The translations under genes and the position numbers were made by a program. This document shows, one piece after another, positions 50,014 to 58,979 of a DNA stretch of 64,000 bases. Numbering within the stretch: position 1 is the first letter of the stretch; each line of letters begins with the position of its first letter. Below the pieces are notes generated by a model. The model was not told the origin of the DNA and made no database searches. It saw nothing but the letters and a program-made list of their open reading frames with translations. This stretch comes from Verrucomicrobiota bacterium (GTDB lineage Bacteria; Verrucomicrobiota; Verrucomicrobiia; Limisphaerales; UBA9464): NCBI GenBank assembly GCA_016871805.1, contig VHCG01000008.1:1-64000 (forward strand), given 5' to 3'.

Positions 50014-53000
50014 CTAGTCCACAAACACGAACTCATTGGCGCTCAGCAGGACCTGCGCGTAGCGCTGCCATGGATCCAGCGGAGGGTGGGAGTTGAGAGG
50101 TCCACCAAAATCTCGGGCAGCCCGCCACGCCGTCTCGGCACCTCCGGGTGGGTCGAGTCGCTGGATCGTGGGCGCCCAGCGGAACGAGTCCGAGTTCTCG
50201 CTGCTCCTCGGTTCCACCATGAAATCGAGGGTCTCGCCAGCCTCCACGGTCACCCAGCCAAGCCCGGCGGGGGCCTTGCCGTGGGCGACGGCCCATTGGG
50301 CCAGTTGCCCGCGGCGGCTGGAGATGATCCGGCCCATGACACCATCACCCTCCTGTGCGGGATGCTCCAAATCGCCCTCGATCCGGACCACACCCTTGAA
50401 CGGGGACGTCCATCGACGGATCGCGGCGTCCCGGGTCCCGGGCCCTGGATGCCCACCCCTGGCGTCCAACATCGTCCAGAGTCCCGTCTTGGAAGGCAGC
50501 TTCGGATCCCACTGCCACGCCTTGCCAGTGAAATGGGGCAGCGGACGCCATCCTTCCAAGCGACCGGTCGACGGGTTGAACCCACCGGTCCCATAGGACC
50601 AGGCCGCTGCCGGAGGCGGTTCCGGCAGCGGGGCTTTCGGGCGGGACAGGAAGTCGAGGCCCAGCTGGATCTCCGGGCCCGAAGGATCCCGCTGGTAGGC
50701 GAGCCGGTACAGCCTGCGGATCCTGTCGGTCGGCCTGACCACCGTGACGACGTCGGGCCGCCCCGTGAAGTCGCGGGCCCGATCCGCCAGGAATGGACTG
50801 TTCATCAGAAACAGCGCCTGCTGGGGCGTCGTGGTCTGGAACCTCAGCGGCGATGTCGTGTCGGGGCTCGCGAAATCGAAGGCCCGGAGCAGTCCCGGCA
50901 GGTTCTGTCGGTCGATGAAACCATACAGCGTCCGTCGCAGCGTCGAGGTTTCCTCGAACATCGGGACGGGCTGGCCTCCGATGTCGCCATCCAGCCTTCC
51001 GGACACCCACAGAAGGCTGTCCCGCAGTGCCTCGAAATCCAGGCGCTGTCGGTTCATGCGCCACAGCAGGGAGTTGTTCGGATCGACCGATTCCCCGCGC
51101 TCGAACCGGGCGCGGTCCGAGGAGTCCTCGGGATCGCTGCGCTGCTGGTAGGTGTCCGAAGACAGGATGTAGCGGTGCAGGGCCTTCAGGGACCAACCGT
51201 GGTCCATGAACCAGACCGCCAGATGGTCGAGCAGATCAGGGTGGGTTGGTTTTTCGCCACGCACACCAAAGTCGCTTGGGGTTCGGACCAGAGGCGCACC
51301 GAAGTGCCACATCCAGACACGGTTCACGAGCACCCGGGCGGTGATTGGGTTGTCCCGGCTGGCGATGGCCTGGGCGAGCTCGAGCCGACCGCTGCCCCGG
51401 GTGAATGCGGTGCGTTGGGTTCCGCTGAGAACGCCGAGAAACTGGCGCGGCACCTTGGCCCCGGGGTTGCCCGGATTGCCGCGCTTGAACACGACGGGCT
51501 CGATGGGCTGGGAACGGTCCAGATAGGCCATGGCGCGGAGTGGGGCCCCGGCGTGTGTTGCCTCGAGTTCGTCGACCTTCCGCTTCAACGCCCGGATCTT
51601 CTGTCCTGTGGGGGTGTCGAAGAACCGGTCGATGTCCTTCATCGCCGCCATCACGGGCGAGTCGGCTGCACCCAAGACCCGTCGAAGTTGTTCCTGCCCG
51701 GGATCGGCGAGGGACTCCGGCGCCGGACGTCCCTGGACCTTCGCCAGCTCGAGGGTCTCCGACCAGGCTCGATCCGCGTCGACGAGCAGGTCGCCGTAGC
51801 GTTTGGCGACTTCGGCAAAGGAATTGGGTGGCGGGTTCCGCAGGGCCACGACGACCCGGGCGTTCCAAGTGGTGTTGGCGGCGCTGGTGTTGGTGCTGCC
51901 GGACGCCGCGGGGGATTCGAGGAGGGACTGGGCACGGGTCGGGAAGTCGTTGGTCCCCAGCCGGGCGAGCGCAAACCAAGGGCCGAAGACGGAATCCCCG
52001 TTGCCCTGCCACTGTTCCAGGCGACCCTTCCAGGAGCCGACCAGGCCTGGGTCCAGGCTGCGGACCCGCGCCAGTCCCTCGAGGTTGGTCCAGTCGAGGG
52101 CCATCGAGTCCTGGGCTGCCACAAGGTAGTCCCCAACCCGTTCCCTCAACTTCTTAGCGATGTCCTGGGTCCTCTCCGCCCGGAATGCGTCCAGTTCCTT
52201 CTGCTGCTCGGCCTTCTCCTTCGCATAGGCTTCGGCCTGCGTGAGGTTGGGATTCGGCCCTAGCAGGGGTTTCTCGTCAGGCTCCTGGCTTGAGTTGAAG
52301 ACGCCGTAGAGCGAGTAGTAGTCGGCGGACGGGATGGGATCGTGCTTGTGGTCGTGACACCGCGCACAGGCCACGGTGAGCCCGAGCGTCCCACGGGTGA
52401 CGACATCGATCTGGTCGTCGATGATGTCGTGCGGGTTGTCGAGGAACCGACGTCCGAGCGTCAGGAATCCCTGCGCCGCCATCGGCCAAGGGTCCTCGGG
52501 CGTGGCGACCTGGTCCCCGGCGATCTGCTGGATCAGGAACGCATCGTAGGGCAGGTCCCGGTTGAGTGCCTGAACGACCCAGTCCCGGTAGGTGAAGCTG
52601 TGGCTGAAGCGCCGTTCCTGTTCGAAGACGTATCCCTTCGAGTCGGCGTAGCGGGCGACGTCGAGCCAGTGACGTCCCCAGCGTTCGCCGTACCGGGGCG
52701 ATGCGAGGAGCCGATCGACGGCGGACTCGTAGGCCGTCGGCGAGGGGTCCTCGAGAAACGCCTGCATCTCCTCGGGGCTCGGGGGAAGTCCGGTGAGATC
52801 GAAGGCGACGCGGCGGAGCAGGGTGTGCCGATCCGCCCTCGGTGAGGGACTCAGCCCCTTCGGCACCAGCTGGGCGACGATGAAGCGGTCGATCGGGTGG
52901 GAGAGATGTTCGAATCCGGCAACGGGGGGTGGAGGAAGGGATCGGGGTGTCTGGAAGGCCCAGTGTCCGTCGACGGGTCCCGGTGTCGTCTCCACGCTTC

Positions 53001-53418
53001 GGGGATCCGGGGCGCCTGCTCGGATCCAGTCGGCGACGGCGGCGATCTGCTCCGGTCGGAGGGGTCCACCGGCTTTCCTCGGGGGCATGGCTCCGATGTC
53101 CGGCGCTGTGCCGTGGAGAACCTTCAGCAACAGGCTCTCATCGGGTTTGCCCGGGACCAGCAGCGGTCCGGAGGCACCGCCCTTGAGGACGCCATCCCGG
53201 GTGTCGAGGCGGAGGGCCCCCTTGACCTCCTTCGCCTGGGCGCTGTGGCAGGGGTAGCAGTGCTCGATCAGCACGGGGCGGATCGAGGTCTCGAACGCCT
53301 CGAACCGCTCGGCATCGGTCGCGGCGACGGGCCCCCCTCCAACGACAATAACCCCGCCACCGAGGGCCAAGGCGAGCAGGCGGCCACGGAGTCCGGGACT
53401 GGGCTTGGAGAATTTCAT
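50014..53418 (-). CDS. PSD1-type cytochrome-domain protein (DUF1549/DUF1553)
   Basis: The 1134-residue secreted protein has a signal peptide (RGRLLALALGGGVIVVGGG). It carries a planctomycete-type cytochrome domain with CYPCH at 54-58 and KGALRLDTRDGVLKGG; DUF1549 (HPIDRFIVAQLVPKGLSPSPRADRHTLLRRVAFDLTGLPP, WLDVARYADSKGY); a second CxxCH (CARCH, near 352); DUF1553 (RVLVNRVWMWHFGAPLVRTPSDFG, DTTSPLRFQTTTPQQALFLMN); and a C-terminal beta-rich extension (GDGVMGRIISSR). Such proteins usually pair with DUF1501 proteins and are thought to act on polysaccharides; no DUF1501 gene is adjacent. ATG 53418 is chosen because the earlier open frame is antisense to the WPFF gene. Confidence 0.92.
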   Translation of the reverse strand: MKFSKPSPGLRGRLLALALGGGVIVVGGGPVAATDAERFEAFETSIRPVLIEHCYPCHSAQAKEVKGALRLDTRDGVLKGGASGPLLVPGKPDESLLLKVLHGTAPDIGAMPPRKAGGPLRPEQIAAVADWIRAGAPDPRSVETTPGPVDGHWAFQTPRSLPPPPVAGFEHLSHPIDRFIVAQLVPKGLSPSPRADRHTLLRRVAFDLTGLPPSPEEMQAFLEDPSPTAYESAVDRLLASPRYGERWGRHWLDVARYADSKGYVFEQERRFSHSFTYRDWVVQALNRDLPYDAFLIQQIAGDQVATPEDPWPMAAQGFLTLGRRFLDNPHDIIDDQIDVVTRGTLGLTVACARCHDHKHDPIPSADYYSLYGVFNSSQEPDEKPLLGPNPNLTQAEAYAKEKAEQQKELDAFRAERTQDIAKKLRERVGDYLVAAQDSMALDWTNLEGLARVRSLDPGLVGSWKGRLEQWQGNGDSVFGPWFALARLGTNDFPTRAQSLLESPAASGSTNTSAANTTWNARVVVALRNPPPNSFAEVAKRYGDLLVDADRAWSETLELAKVQGRPAPESLADPGQEQLRRVLGAADSPVMAAMKDIDRFFDTPTGQKIRALKRKVDELEATHAGAPLRAMAYLDRSQPIEPVVFKRGNPGNPGAKVPRQFLGVLSGTQRTAFTRGSGRLELAQAIASRDNPITARVLVNRVWMWHFGAPLVRTPSDFGVRGEKPTHPDLLDHLAVWFMDHGWSLKALHRYILSSDTYQQRSDPEDSSDRARFERGESVDPNNSLLWRMNRQRLDFEALRDSLLWVSGRLDGDIGGQPVPMFEETSTLRRTLYGFIDRQNLPGLLRAFDFASPDTTSPLRFQTTTPQQALFLMNSPFLADRARDFTGRPDVVTVVRPTDRIRRLYRLAYQRDPSGPEIQLGLDFLSRPKAPLPEPPPAAAWSYGTGGFNPSTGRLEGWRPLPHFTGKAWQWDPKLPSKTGLWTMLDARGGHPGPGTRDAAIRRWTSPFKGVVRIEGDLEHPAQEGDGVMGRIISSRRGQLAQWAVAHGKAPAGLGWVTVEAGETLDFMVEPRSSENSDSFRWAPTIQRLDPPGGAETAWRAARDFGGPLNSHPPLDPWQRYAQVLLSANEFVFVD

Positions 53419-53589
53419 GTCGGGTGCACCGTTCGGGACAACGGGACCATTATGTTCAACGGGGATGCGGTTGACCATATTCGAGGCGTTGCGGGATGTG
53501 TGGAGATCCGAGGGGCCGGCCCGACGTGGATCCCTCCGGTCCGTGGCTTGCCTCCGGGGACCTGTTTCCGCGAGGATCCCCGGTGACGC

Positions 53590-55134
53590 ATGGGTCACTG
53601 GTTCCGAATCGCGCTGTGGGTGGTGCTCGCCGGATGGGGGGCACACGCCGCCACCCCGCCGGAGGTCGTCTCGGAGGCGCCGCTCCAGGCTGGTCCCCTC
53701 TTCACGGAGTTTCCGACGGTCTGGGAGTCCGGCCGGAAGACCGAGATCCTTGGGCCTTTGGCAATGTGGGAGCGGACCGAGGATGAGCGGAACTGGGGTC
53801 TTTACCCGCTCATGAGCTACCAGTCGGCCCCGATCCTGGAGGTCGAGGAGCTGGACGTGTTGTATCCGCTCTTCACCTGGCGAAAGCAGGGGACCGAGTC
53901 GAGGTTGCAGTTCCTGCAGTTCCTGAACTTCGCCGGTGCCTCCTACCAGTCCGAGGATCCCGTGGTCCGGCGCACTGTTTTCCCGTTCTATTTCGAGCAG
54001 GAGTCCCGCAGCGGGACCAACGACTACATCGCGGTCCTGCCCTTCTACGGACACGCCCGAAACCGGATGTTTCGCGACGAGTTCAACTTCTACATGTTCC
54101 CGCTCTACCTCGAGAGCCGGAAGGGGGAGCTGGTCACGCGCAACTATGTGATGCCGTTCGTCCATACCCGACATGGTCCGGGCTGGGACGGCTGGCAGGT
54201 CTGGCCCTTGTTCGGCTGGGAGAGGAAGGAGATCGGATGGACGACCAACCACCTGGGTGACCGGGTGGTTTCCCCGGGTGGCGGGAAGGTATTTGCTCTC
54301 TGGCCCTTCTTCTTCGATGAGAAGCTCCGACTCGGCACTCCACAGGCCACGACCAACTTCGCCATCCTGCCGTTCTACTCGCGGCAACGCGGAACGAACC
54401 TCCACCAGACCTCGGTGCTCTGGCCCTTCTTCAGCCGGACGGAGGACCGCTCCAAGGGCTTCGTGGAATGGGGTGCGCCCTGGCCGTTCATCGGATGGGC
54501 GGACAGCACCAACAAGATCGCGCGGCGCTTCTTCCCGTTCTACGGGGTGGCGAAGGCGCCCGGGGTCGAATCGCGCCTGGTCATGTGGCCCTTCTATACG
54601 CATCGGAAGGCCGAGAACGGCGCGATGCGACGCGACCGCTGGCGCACGGCGTTCTTCCTCTATGACGACGTCCGGCTGCTGAGCAAGGAGGACGGTCGCT
54701 ATCGCCGGGAACAGGCTTTGTGGCCCTTCTTTGTCTGGAAAAGGGATCTGGATGGACGGGAACGGCTCCAGGTGTTGGAGCTGTTCGAGACCTTCTTCCG
54801 GAACCGGGAGTCGGTTCAGCGAAACTATTCGCCCCTCTGGGCCCTGTACCGCTCCGAGAATAACCCCAACACGGGCCGATCGAGCCAGTCCCTGCTCTGG
54901 AATCTCCACCGGCGTGACGTGTCACCGTCGCAGGTCCGGACCTCCACCCTCTTCGGTCTGATCCAGACCCTCCGCGGAGAGGACGATCGCCTTCATTGGA
55001 GGTGGCTCTGGATTCCGAGCGCCCAGTTCCGCGAGACGTCGTCCCAGGCAGCGGCTTCCGTCGGCCCCAGGGGCGACTCCCGCCCCTTCCAAGGGTTCCA
55101 GGGCGTCGACTCGGCGCGGGGGGCGACGCCTTGA
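53590..55134 (+). CDS. Secreted WPFF-repeat protein of unknown function
   Basis: The 514-residue protein starts at ATG 53590 with a signal peptide (WFRIALWVVLAGWGAHA). The mature part is built of about 14 copies of a hydrophobic-x-P-[FL]-[FYIV] motif: YPLM, YPLF, FPFY, LPFY, FPLY, MPFV, WPLF, WPFF and so on. Prolines lie near 73, 93, 132, 151, 171, 189, 206, 239, 261, 279, 299, 316, 334 and 379, commonly 17-22 residues apart. This is a strand-rich repeat and might form a barrel or propeller. I know of no described family function. It is divergent from the PSD1 gene and lies upstream of the mlaE/F/D-type genes on the same strand. Confidence 0.75.
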   Translation: MGHWFRIALWVVLAGWGAHAATPPEVVSEAPLQAGPLFTEFPTVWESGRKTEILGPLAMWERTEDERNWGLYPLMSYQSAPILEVEELDVLYPLFTWRKQGTESRLQFLQFLNFAGASYQSEDPVVRRTVFPFYFEQESRSGTNDYIAVLPFYGHARNRMFRDEFNFYMFPLYLESRKGELVTRNYVMPFVHTRHGPGWDGWQVWPLFGWERKEIGWTTNHLGDRVVSPGGGKVFALWPFFFDEKLRLGTPQATTNFAILPFYSRQRGTNLHQTSVLWPFFSRTEDRSKGFVEWGAPWPFIGWADSTNKIARRFFPFYGVAKAPGVESRLVMWPFYTHRKAENGAMRRDRWRTAFFLYDDVRLLSKEDGRYRREQALWPFFVWKRDLDGRERLQVLELFETFFRNRESVQRNYSPLWALYRSENNPNTGRSSQSLLWNLHRRDVSPSQVRTSTLFGLIQTLRGEDDRLHWRWLWIPSAQFRETSSQAAASVGPRGDSRPFQGFQGVDSARGATP

Positions 55135-55391: not shown

Positions 55392-56150
55392 ATGTTCCGA
55401 AACATTGGAGAAATGGTGTTGCTGTTCGTCGCCACAGTGAAGGCCCTCCCGTGGGCGTGCCGCGAGCGTCGGAAGATCGCCGAACAGCTCTTCGACATCG
55501 GGAACGCCAGCCTCTTCATGGCCTGTGTCCTGTCCCTCTTCATCGGAGGTGTCCTGTCGCTCCAGAGTGGTCCGGTCCTGGTGGAAAACGGGATCGGCTC
55601 CGCGCTCGGTAACCTCGTCGCCATCGCCATGTGCAAGGAACTGGCCCCGGTCATGATGTCGATCCTCGTGGCCGGGCGCGTCGGCTCGGCCATGGCGGCG
55701 GAACTGGGCTCGATGAGCGTCTACCAGGAGATCGATGCCCTCCGGACCCTCGCCATCAATCCGATCCGCTTCCTGGTCCTGCCACGCGTCATCGCCATCA
55801 GCATCGCGGTGCCGTGCCTTGTTGTGTTCTCGAACCTGGTCGGCTGGCTGGGAGGGGCGTTCGTCGCCGCCCACAATGACCGTATTGCCGTGCCGGCCGA
55901 GACCTTCTTCACCAGCCTCCGTGAGGGCGTCGATCCCGGGGACGTCGTGAACGGACTGATCAAGTCCTTCTTCTTCGCGCTGTGTGCCGGGGTGATCTGC
56001 TGCCACCAGGGACTCACCACACAGGGCGGTCCCCGCGGGATCGGTAGAAGTGTGACCAAGGCCGTGGTCAACTCGCTCGCCCTGATTTTGATTCTCGACT
56101 ACATCCTGACCCGGGTCCTCCTGCCGTTTGACAACGGGTTCTTCGCGTGA
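55392..56150 (+). CDS. mlaE: MlaE-family ABC permease (MCE/Mla lipid transport)
   Basis: The 252-residue membrane protein has FIGGVLSLQSGPVL, RVGSAMAAELGSMSVYQEIDALRTLAINPIRFLVLPRV (the conserved MlaE coupling-helix region) and several transmembrane spans. MlaE with MlaF and MlaD forms the inner-membrane complex that moves phospholipids between membranes. It overlaps mlaF by 4 bases (GTGA), indicating one operon. Neither MlaC nor MlaB is adjacent. Confidence 0.92.
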   Translation: MFRNIGEMVLLFVATVKALPWACRERRKIAEQLFDIGNASLFMACVLSLFIGGVLSLQSGPVLVENGIGSALGNLVAIAMCKELAPVMMSILVAGRVGSAMAAELGSMSVYQEIDALRTLAINPIRFLVLPRVIAISIAVPCLVVFSNLVGWLGGAFVAAHNDRIAVPAETFFTSLREGVDPGDVVNGLIKSFFFALCAGVICCHQGLTTQGGPRGIGRSVTKAVVNSLALILILDYILTRVLLPFDNGFFA

Positions 56151-56905
56151 CCATGTCCGACTCCCGCTCCACAGGCATCCCGCTCAAGGTCCGGAACCTC
56201 CGGAAGTCCTACGACGGACGTGTCGTGCTGCAGTCGATGGACCTCGACATTGCCGCGGGGGAGATCTTCGTGTTGATGGGGCCGAGTGGCTCCGGAAAGT
56301 CAGTGTTCCTGCGCCACCTCATCGGGCTGGAAGCCCCGGATTCCGGGGAGATCCTGGTCGGTGGCGAACGGGTCGGTCCGGATATCGACCAGACGCGCCA
56401 TCGACTCGCCATGGTGTTCCAGGGCGGAGGCCTGCTGAATTCCCTGACAGTCGAGGAGAACGTGGGATTGTATCTCCGCGAACATCGCCTCAAGGCCTCC
56501 GAAGAGATCAACCGGATCGTCCTCGAGAAGCTGGCGCTGGTCCGCTTGGGCTCCGACGACGCCGGCAAATACCCGTCCGAACTCTCTGGCGGCATGCGCA
56601 AGCGGGTGGCGATCGCTCGGGCGCTGGTCATCGAGCCCCAGCTGATCCTCTACGATGAGCCGACCAGCGAGCTGGATCCCTTGGTGTCGCTCACCATCGG
56701 TCGCGAGATCGTGAACCTCAACCGCCGTATCGGCGCCACCAGCGTGGTGGTCACGCACCACGTCGATCTCGCTATGGGCATCGCCGATCGCATCGCCTTC
56801 CTGTCCGAAGGGGCCATCGTGGCCCTCGGAACGCCGGAGCAGATCCGCTCCAGCCCAGTACCGCTCGTCCACCAGTTCCTGAACGCGGAGTTCAAGGAGG
56901 CCTAA
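56147..56905 (+). CDS. mlaF: MlaF-family ABC ATPase (lipid transport)
   Basis: The 252-residue ATPase has Walker A GPSGSGKSVFLRHLIGLE, Q-loop MVFQGGGL, signature ELSGGMRKRVAIARAL, Walker B LILYDEPTSELDP and switch VVVTHHVDLA. GGMRKR and FQGGGL are hallmarks of the Mla/MCE subfamily. The annotated start is GTG 56147, overlapping mlaE; ATG 56153 would remove two residues. It powers MlaE/MlaD. Confidence 0.93.
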   Translation: MTMSDSRSTGIPLKVRNLRKSYDGRVVLQSMDLDIAAGEIFVLMGPSGSGKSVFLRHLIGLEAPDSGEILVGGERVGPDIDQTRHRLAMVFQGGGLLNSLTVEENVGLYLREHRLKASEEINRIVLEKLALVRLGSDDAGKYPSELSGGMRKRVAIARALVIEPQLILYDEPTSELDPLVSLTIGREIVNLNRRIGATSVVVTHHVDLAMGIADRIAFLSEGAIVALGTPEQIRSSPVPLVHQFLNAEFKEA

Positions 56906-56942
56906 AACCATTTCACATCGCATCCATCCCCCATCCCAATCC

Positions 56943-57935
56943 ATGAAATCCTCGCTCGAGACCCGTCTGGGCACGTTCTTCGCCGTGGTCACCATCGCCG
57001 GCTTCATCCTGTTCGAGATGCTGGGCGGGGCGAACGTCTTCAACCGGGGCACCGTCTACCGGGCCCGATTCAGTTCCGCCCGTGACCTGAAGGTGGGCGA
57101 CCCGGTCAAGCTCTCCGGCGTCCCGGTGGGACGGGTGAAGTCGGTCGCCGTGGTGGGCAACCGCGTCGAGGTGGGGCTTCAGGCCGATCCCAAGGCGCCG
57201 GTGCGGACCGACAGTGTCGCGGCCATCCAGTTCACGGGCCTGATGGGACAGAACTTCGTCGCCCTGACCTTCGGGGGTGAGAACTCCCCCCTCGCCGTCG
57301 CCGACACCCTGCTGCAGTCCCGGGAGCAGGCCGATCTGTCGGATCTCATGACCCGGTTGGACAACGTGGCCAGCGGCGTCGAGGGCCTCACCAAGAGCTT
57401 CAGCGGCGAGGAGGTCAGCAAGCTGTTCGGGCCGCTGACCGACTTCATGAAGCAGAACCAGTCCAACATCACGACCATCGTCGCCAACATGCGGGACGTC
57501 ACCTCCGAGATGGCCCAGGGTCGGGGATCGATTGGACGGCTTCTGAAGGATCCAGCGCTCTTCACGGCTGCGGTCGGCACCATGAACCATCTCAACGAGG
57601 CGGTCTCCGACGTGAAGCCGCTGACCCAGGAGGCACGGGGGATGATGACCGATCTCCGCAGCGTGGTTGGGAAAATCGAGAAGGGCGAAGGAACGATCGG
57701 GAAGTTCCTCTCCGATCCCTCCCTCTTCAACCAGGCCAATGGGGCCGTGGGCAACCTCCGGGAGATCCTCGAGAAGATCAACCGGGGCACTGGATCGATC
57801 GGCGAACTGGTCAACGACAACGCCTTCCTCAAGAACGTGAAGCTGACCCTCCAGAAGGTCGACAAGGCCACCGAGACCCTCGAGGACACCGGTCCGATCA
57901 GTGTAATTGGCACCGCCGTGGGCGTCCTGTTCTAG
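56943..57935 (+). CDS. mlaD: MlaD-like MCE-domain protein
   Basis: The 330-residue protein has one N-terminal transmembrane helix (LGTFFAVVTIAGFILFEML). An MCE domain (about 40-115) has FSSARDLKVGDPVKLSGVPVGRV and FTGLMGQNFVALTF. A long helical tail with three related blocks follows: GRGSIGRLLKDPALF, GEGTIGKFLSDPSLF and GTGSIGELVNDNAFL. MCE proteins bind lipids and form hexameric rings or tubes spanning the periplasm. The helical tail is long compared with E. coli MlaD (183 residues) and may extend the tube towards the outer membrane. Confidence 0.9.
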   Translation: MKSSLETRLGTFFAVVTIAGFILFEMLGGANVFNRGTVYRARFSSARDLKVGDPVKLSGVPVGRVKSVAVVGNRVEVGLQADPKAPVRTDSVAAIQFTGLMGQNFVALTFGGENSPLAVADTLLQSREQADLSDLMTRLDNVASGVEGLTKSFSGEEVSKLFGPLTDFMKQNQSNITTIVANMRDVTSEMAQGRGSIGRLLKDPALFTAAVGTMNHLNEAVSDVKPLTQEARGMMTDLRSVVGKIEKGEGTIGKFLSDPSLFNQANGAVGNLREILEKINRGTGSIGELVNDNAFLKNVKLTLQKVDKATETLEDTGPISVIGTAVGVLF

Positions 57936-58328: not shown

Positions 58329-58979
58329 GTGGCATTTTCAGCAGGGGTGGGCAGGTTCACTCTACGAGCTTTGGTGTCCTCAGCGGAGCATCAGCTGGTT
58401 GTGGGGCCCAATCCCGTCGGTCGGGACCCAGTCAACCGGATCCTGATCGAGCACCCGAGTGTGTCCGGATTCCATGCCGAGGTCTCGGTGCTCGATGGGG
58501 GAAACCGGGTCTGGGTGAGGGATCTCGGGTCGACGAATGGGACCCTGATCTCCGGGCGGGCCATCACCGAAGGTGAGCTGCGGCCGGGGGAGGCTCTGAG
58601 GATCGGCGATGTGGAGATGACGCTGGTGGTCGAAACGATGGAGGTGCGGATTCCGTCGATGACACCGGCTGCGGCCTCCGCAGCGTTCGGAGTCGATCAC
58701 GTTCTGGCGGATGGGACGCCCGCCTGTTGTCGGAATCCGGAACTCCCCGCGACTCATCAGCCCATTGACGGATGTCAGGCGGTCCTCCAGTGCCCGGCGA
58801 GATTCCACGTCTCGAGCCTGCGTGCGACCCGGCTGACGGGAAAACACTCGAGGGCGCTGCTCTTCTGCCCCCAGTGCAACGCCAAGTGCGAACCCATCCC
58901 GGGCCTGGCCGTGAAACCGAAGAAAAAGGGACTCTTCAGCCGGATTGCCGATACGGTCCGACTGGGATTCCGACGCTGA
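58329..58979 (+). CDS. FHA-domain protein with a cysteine-rich, RING-like C-terminus
   Basis: The 216-residue protein has an FHA phosphothreonine-binding domain at about 22-100 (VGRDPVNR, HPSVSGFHAEV, VRDLGSTNGTLISG). A C-terminal zinc-ligand-rich stretch has Cys133, 134, 149, 155, 180, 183, 187 and His143, 160, 173, with FCPQCNAKCEPI at its end, reminiscent of prokaryotic RING-like fingers. A basic tail (KPKKKGLFSRIADTVRLGFRR) may bind membrane or nucleic acid. The start is GTG 58329, or GTG 58347. It may read the phosphorylation state set by a Ser/Thr kinase; no kinase is adjacent. Confidence 0.75.
   Translation: MAFSAGVGRFTLRALVSSAEHQLVVGPNPVGRDPVNRILIEHPSVSGFHAEVSVLDGGNRVWVRDLGSTNGTLISGRAITEGELRPGEALRIGDVEMTLVVETMEVRIPSMTPAAASAAFGVDHVLADGTPACCRNPELPATHQPIDGCQAVLQCPARFHVSSLRATRLTGKHSRALLFCPQCNAKCEPIPGLAVKPKKKGLFSRIADTVRLGFRR

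Follow-up and report, generated by a model that had tools for sequence, protein, structure and literature searches.

MlaEFD is the core of the Mla lipid transport systems and is widespread among bacteria with two membranes, and MlaA and MlaC (of MlaABC) are mostly proteobacterial; MlaD is usually long, and in the PVC group it is without the outer-membrane barrel that certain other phyla have (PMC10665443). How the MlaEFD of the PVC group reaches the outer membrane without MlaA, MlaC or a barrel is the question raised by one locus of the window, by which is meant the whole 64,000-nucleotide stretch of a Verrucomicrobiota contig that was analysed. Upstream of an mlaE-mlaF-mlaD operon lies a gene for a protein of 514 amino acids (53590..55134, + strand), recognized from its open reading frame and translation and from homologues across the phylum. 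This hairpin-repeat protein, hereafter called by its working name WPFF, offers a concrete and testable answer.

The first 20 or so residues of WPFF (53590..53649, +) have the composition of a signal peptide, in keeping with the original prediction, and a hydrophobic N-terminal core was found in 209 of 215 family members; this export signal was judged from simple hydropathy rather than with SignalP, and the cleavage site was placed without a dedicated predictor. By the same simple hydropathy measure, no member of the 215 has a helical transmembrane segment in its body. The conserved part of the protein is a repeat region spanning residues 33-478 (53686..55023, +). Within it the motif [WFYLVM]-P-[FL]-[hydrophobic/aromatic] occurs in exactly 14 clear copies between residues 72 and 382, spaced 17-22 residues apart in 10 of the 13 intervals; the other three intervals (39, 33 and 45 residues) amount to about two units apiece. 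When the mature sequence was shuffled 20,000 times and scored with a slightly wider pattern, which likewise occurs 14 times in the real protein, the mean number of matches was 1.06 and the maximum 7. The motif count and spacing first noted in this protein are upheld. The repeat continues past the 14 clear copies in degenerate form, giving about 22 units of about 19 residues. Each unit is centred on [LIV]-[WF]-P-[LF]-[YF] with polar, arginine-rich flanks, and in an alignment of 64 sequences, with members down to 22-28% identity, the prolines of the motif vary hardly or not at all. The C-terminal tail, residues 479-514 (55024..55131, +), is variable, with low occupancy and no conservation in the alignment.

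The window protein (P0001) matched nothing in Pfam, NCBIfam or PHROGs at E values up to 10, and neither its sequence nor the 64-member profile found a match in the PDB. Scanning the 64 members against Pfam gave chance-level matches alone. In NCBIfam two of the 64 weakly matched the C-terminal domain of the Leptospira family LA_1737 (NF047486), the best being residues 186-284 of L058:6229-7770 (E=2.7e-6, 27.4 bits, far below the curated cut-off of 60), while the window protein had no match to it. This similarity may reflect a shared aromatic composition; the L058 match is also a lead toward relatives of the repeat beyond the phylum. Literature searches brought up nothing on WPFF or on LA_1737. 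The description of the protein as undescribed stands, with the sub-threshold match of two relatives as its one exception. The gene was present in 28/28 good-quality genomes of the taxonomic family, normally once. A single WPFF protein query matched 114 of 385 genomes in the class sample, including most of the order, and in the phylum sample a profile query found matches at E<=0.01 in 199 of 387 genomes, with strong ones in 172. The family spans the phylum and is usually single copy. Its closest public record is L031, from a Verrucomicrobiales metagenome bin; one scan of genome contigs recovered this close copy alone, and no homologues were found in viral contigs or plasmids.

The three genes downstream were all identified by Pfam: mlaE, the permease (55392..56150, +; PF02405, E=3.5e-71), mlaF, the ABC ATPase (56147..56905, +; PF00005, E=1.7e-33), and mlaD, an MCE-domain protein of 330 amino acids with a long C-terminal part (56943..57935, +; PF02470, E=2.6e-18). 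Permease, ATPase and MCE-domain protein are thus encoded together, at 55392-57935, as an MlaEFD (MCE) operon. The WPFF gene ends 257 bp upstream of the mlaE ATG at 55392 on the same strand, as first noted, a gap larger than usual for the family. Among 215 distinct WPFF genes recovered, 202 had enough flanking sequence for their neighbours to be counted, and in 185 of these mlaE lies directly downstream on the same strand, with a median distance from WPFF stop to mlaE start of 15 bp (<=60 bp in 131/185). Wide loci continue with mlaF and then mlaD in the same order. The expectation that homologues would sit beside mlaE/F/D in other Verrucomicrobia was therefore confirmed. Genes that share an operon need not encode proteins that touch, and the evidence linking WPFF to MlaEFD is genomic; these points, together with the rather large gap in the window, speak for an alternative in which WPFF does unrelated work in the envelope and shares no more than a transcript with mlaEFD.

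Three sets of observations bear on that alternative, the first of which concerns the type of transporter. Two or three MlaE paralogues per genome are usual where WPFF is present. In a tree of 209 MlaE sequences all 149 of the WPFF-linked proteins fell on one side, joined by a single unlinked one (L196, whose genome has its WPFF gene elsewhere), although support for this split was weak. When MlaE and MlaF were concatenated, the tree placed the linked form in two pure clades with support of 1.0 each; one has 41 tips from the class, L196 among them, and the other has 15 from elsewhere in the phylum. A single clade for all linked MlaE was weakly supported in MlaE-only trees (0.68, 0.30) and absent from the concatenated tree; two clades are accordingly claimed and no more. 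The WPFF-negative genomes examined keep the other mla paralogues alone. The genome of the window itself contains another two mlaEFD loci, which belong to other types (L190 and L191; G000:C18:10472-11107 and G000:C1:8502-9125), with neither a WPFF gene nor a hydrophobic MlaD tail of the kind described below. In 17 of 17 genomes where mlaE was not seen beside WPFF, an MlaE of the linked type was found elsewhere in the genome, an assignment that rests on 59-71% identity in 11 genomes of the same order and on the weakly supported split (0.30) in six more distant ones. In one genome consisting of a single contig (G282), the WPFF gene (L070) and its matching mlaEFD (L196) lie about 0.58 Mb apart and both have been kept, which makes this genome a natural control for simple hitch-hiking.

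The second set concerns MlaD. Its C-terminus in the window is a short hydrophobic tail, TEDTGPISVIGTAVGVLF (57879..57932, +), characteristic of MlaD from WPFF-type operons. A final F or L is present in 55/55 WPFF-linked MlaD proteins versus 1/58 of the others, and that one is L196, from the WPFF-positive genome G282, where the tail has been retained despite the separation of the two loci. At the exact C-terminus of linked MlaD, most members from the class have a tail that reads roughly ED.GP[LI]S.[LVI]G....LF; elsewhere in the phylum, most have roughly RE..P[VI]..F....GAF. Judged by its sequence, the tail has the appearance expected of an element that docks on a WPFF-specific partner, and direct contact between the two proteins may be its purpose.

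The third set concerns MlaA (VacJ, PF04333), the lipoprotein that serves the E. coli Mla system at the outer membrane. Within the class sample, a stand-alone MlaA (an open frame under 600 amino acids) was found in 2/114 WPFF-positive versus 73/271 WPFF-negative genomes (Fisher 1.2e-10), and in the phylum sample any MlaA was found in 18/172 versus 134/215 (3e-27), P-values which overstate the case because the genomes are not independent. Both states occur within single families (f43, f59), which implies that the switch took place more than once. In WPFF-negative genomes, G057, G082, G090 and G116 among them, about 2 kb separate MlaA from an mlaE, and in one of the two exceptions with both proteins (G419) MlaA adjoins a second MlaEFD, away from the WPFF gene. 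The rest of the overlap in the class consists mostly of long MlaA proteins of 640-770 amino acids, whose extra part gave a weak alpha/beta-hydrolase profile match in two of the three proteins read. A shared promoter does not explain the retention of WPFF together with its MlaE type after separation, an MlaD tail that tracks WPFF, and the avoidance of MlaA, and we regard mere co-transcription as very improbable. The partnership with mlaE/F/D first proposed from this one locus is strongly supported by genomics: WPFF is real, conserved and undescribed, and would be a component of a kind of system that is already known.

The regular spacing of the motif had suggested hairpins, arranged in a beta-barrel or propeller. 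In a mean-field covariation analysis of 215 WPFF sequences (effective number 186), antiparallel pairing between residues after one motif and residues before the next had a mean z of 0.78 over 22 consecutive unit pairs, against a background of 0.008 (SD 0.24) for 231 other unit pairs. It follows that each motif-to-motif interval forms an antiparallel beta-hairpin, with strands of about 6+6 residues on either side of a short turn, which bears out the hairpin-sized spacing; WPFF is a beta-hairpin repeat family absent from Pfam. Covariation beyond the hairpins was weak, as was that between strand halves distant from the turn. Strands 70-76 and 412-417 couple in antiparallel fashion (S76-N412 and L74-Y413), the S76-N412 coupling being found in both halves of the alignment, and these two pairs by themselves hint that the chain closes on itself. 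No signal of parallel, solenoid-like stacking is claimed, as the couplings between invariant motif columns were as strong at two and three units as at one. Both faces of the strands are hydrophobic at positions -3 to +2 around the motif proline, and both are polar at the strand ends. AlphaFold predictions of the full protein with one relative (shallow input) and of residues 129-345 alone, with mean pLDDT of 30 and 40, were uninformative on the fold. The hairpins of the original proposal thus stand, and its barrel or propeller is a possible arrangement of them; a simple porin-type barrel with a polar lumen is not supported, since the strand faces lack the inside/outside alternation of polar and hydrophobic residues; membrane insertion of WPFF is for the same reason unsupported by sequence.

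These features bear on where in the envelope the protein may work. Chloroplast TGD4 and LptD (PF04453) are beta-strand-rich outer-membrane proteins of lipid pathways, which is the kind of role proposed for WPFF. A transmembrane barrel of 20-24 strands with a lipid-filled lumen, inserted by BAM and playing a TGD4- or LptD-like part, would agree with an exported protein, with the meander-like chain of about 22 hairpin units and with ring closure through S76-N412 and L74-Y413. Such a barrel is nevertheless improbable: polar and hydrophobic faces do not alternate, strand halves distant from the turn pair weakly, a proline sits midway in each would-be strand, and there is no profile similarity to LptD. 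WPFF was rejected as an LptD in its own right, with an hhalign probability of 0.1 percent against 24-25 LptD proteins of the same phylum, and a separate LptD is encoded in 24 of 30 WPFF-positive genomes.

The same absence of alternation, with both strand faces hydrophobic near the motif, would suit a soluble periplasmic protein. It might carry lipid as MlaC does, or surround the MlaD tube as a scaffold, its aromatic hairpins arranged as a ring or solenoid that is hydrophobic inside. Export without transmembrane helices and the hints of a chain closing on itself fit this possibility too. It is at odds with the avoidance of MlaA, an outer-membrane component (the count covers MlaA, and WPFF may instead replace MlaC), and MlaD is in principle long enough to bridge the periplasm itself; we consider a soluble carrier or scaffold rather unlikely, if more plausible than the transmembrane barrel.

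The reading to which we incline, with modest confidence, is that WPFF is the exported partner of one MlaEFD type, probably at the outer membrane, in the place of MlaA. The case is that of a phylum-wide, exported protein inherited with one MlaEFD type, matched by an MlaD tail and avoiding MlaA; because it is inherited with one transporter type, and mostly in genomes without MlaA, WPFF makes a good candidate for the part that the transporter lacks at the outer membrane. From these genomic patterns we infer its outer-membrane location, its contact with MlaD and its handling of lipid. The ATPase MlaF, the permease MlaE and MlaD, by analogy a hexamer, would be seated in the inner membrane, with the long C-terminal part of MlaD spanning the periplasm and its hydrophobic tail docking on WPFF. 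WPFF, whose most likely place is in the outer membrane or on its surface, would then provide the route for phospholipids between that membrane and the MlaD channel, in one direction or the other, and so do the job of E. coli MlaA. A more specific form, in which about 22 beta-hairpins of a new fold make up a ring or tube that caps MlaD at the outer membrane via the hydrophobic tail, is put forward tentatively and is itself less probable than the general reading. Were it true, WPFF and MlaEFD would in much of the phylum bridge the whole envelope for lipids and have no need of MlaA.

Although WPFF and MlaA share this proposed role at the outer-membrane end of MlaEFD, they rarely occur in the same genome and differ in kind. 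WPFF is about twice as long, is built of beta-hairpin repeats and has no general lipobox. An identity with MlaA was rejected, as PF04333 matched neither the window protein (at E up to 10) nor any of the 64 members, and so was an MlaA-like lipoprotein: a simple pattern found a possible lipobox in just 13 of 215 members, and the window protein has no cysteine near its signal peptide. In Veillonella parvula and other diderm Terrabacteria, a long MlaD with a C-terminal beta-barrel lets MlaEFD work without MlaA and MlaC, a different module making contact with the outer membrane (PMC10665443). The MlaD described here, unlike that of V. parvula, has a short hydrophobic tail and no barrel, and the module proposed for the outer membrane is a protein of its own.

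Neither WPFF nor MlaA was found in 187 of the 385 class genomes, and MlaE was present in nearly all of those tested; a dedicated partner of either kind is thus not universal, and there may be a third outer-membrane arrangement in such genomes. The long MlaA proteins, unlike stand-alone MlaA, show no avoidance of WPFF genomes. Examples are L430:1909-3945 (G008), L431:1087-2973 (G170) and L434:1434-3572 (G477), and about 100 further MlaA matches with open frames of 600-850 amino acids were seen in the class and phylum samples. In their layout an N-terminal MlaA domain is followed by 350-400 amino acids that weakly match alpha/beta-hydrolase/esterase profiles and carry a GxSxG-like GFSMG or GYSMG; by sequence they look like MlaA fused to a lipase-like domain. 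In the window, mlaD is followed by a gene for an FHA-domain protein (58329-58979, +; PF00498, E=4e-15). Upstream of the WPFF gene a large divergent gene (~50014-53500, - strand) has a translation holding a CxxCH-type stretch, and its product presumably resembles the planctomycete-type cytochrome (DUF1549/DUF1553) proteins.
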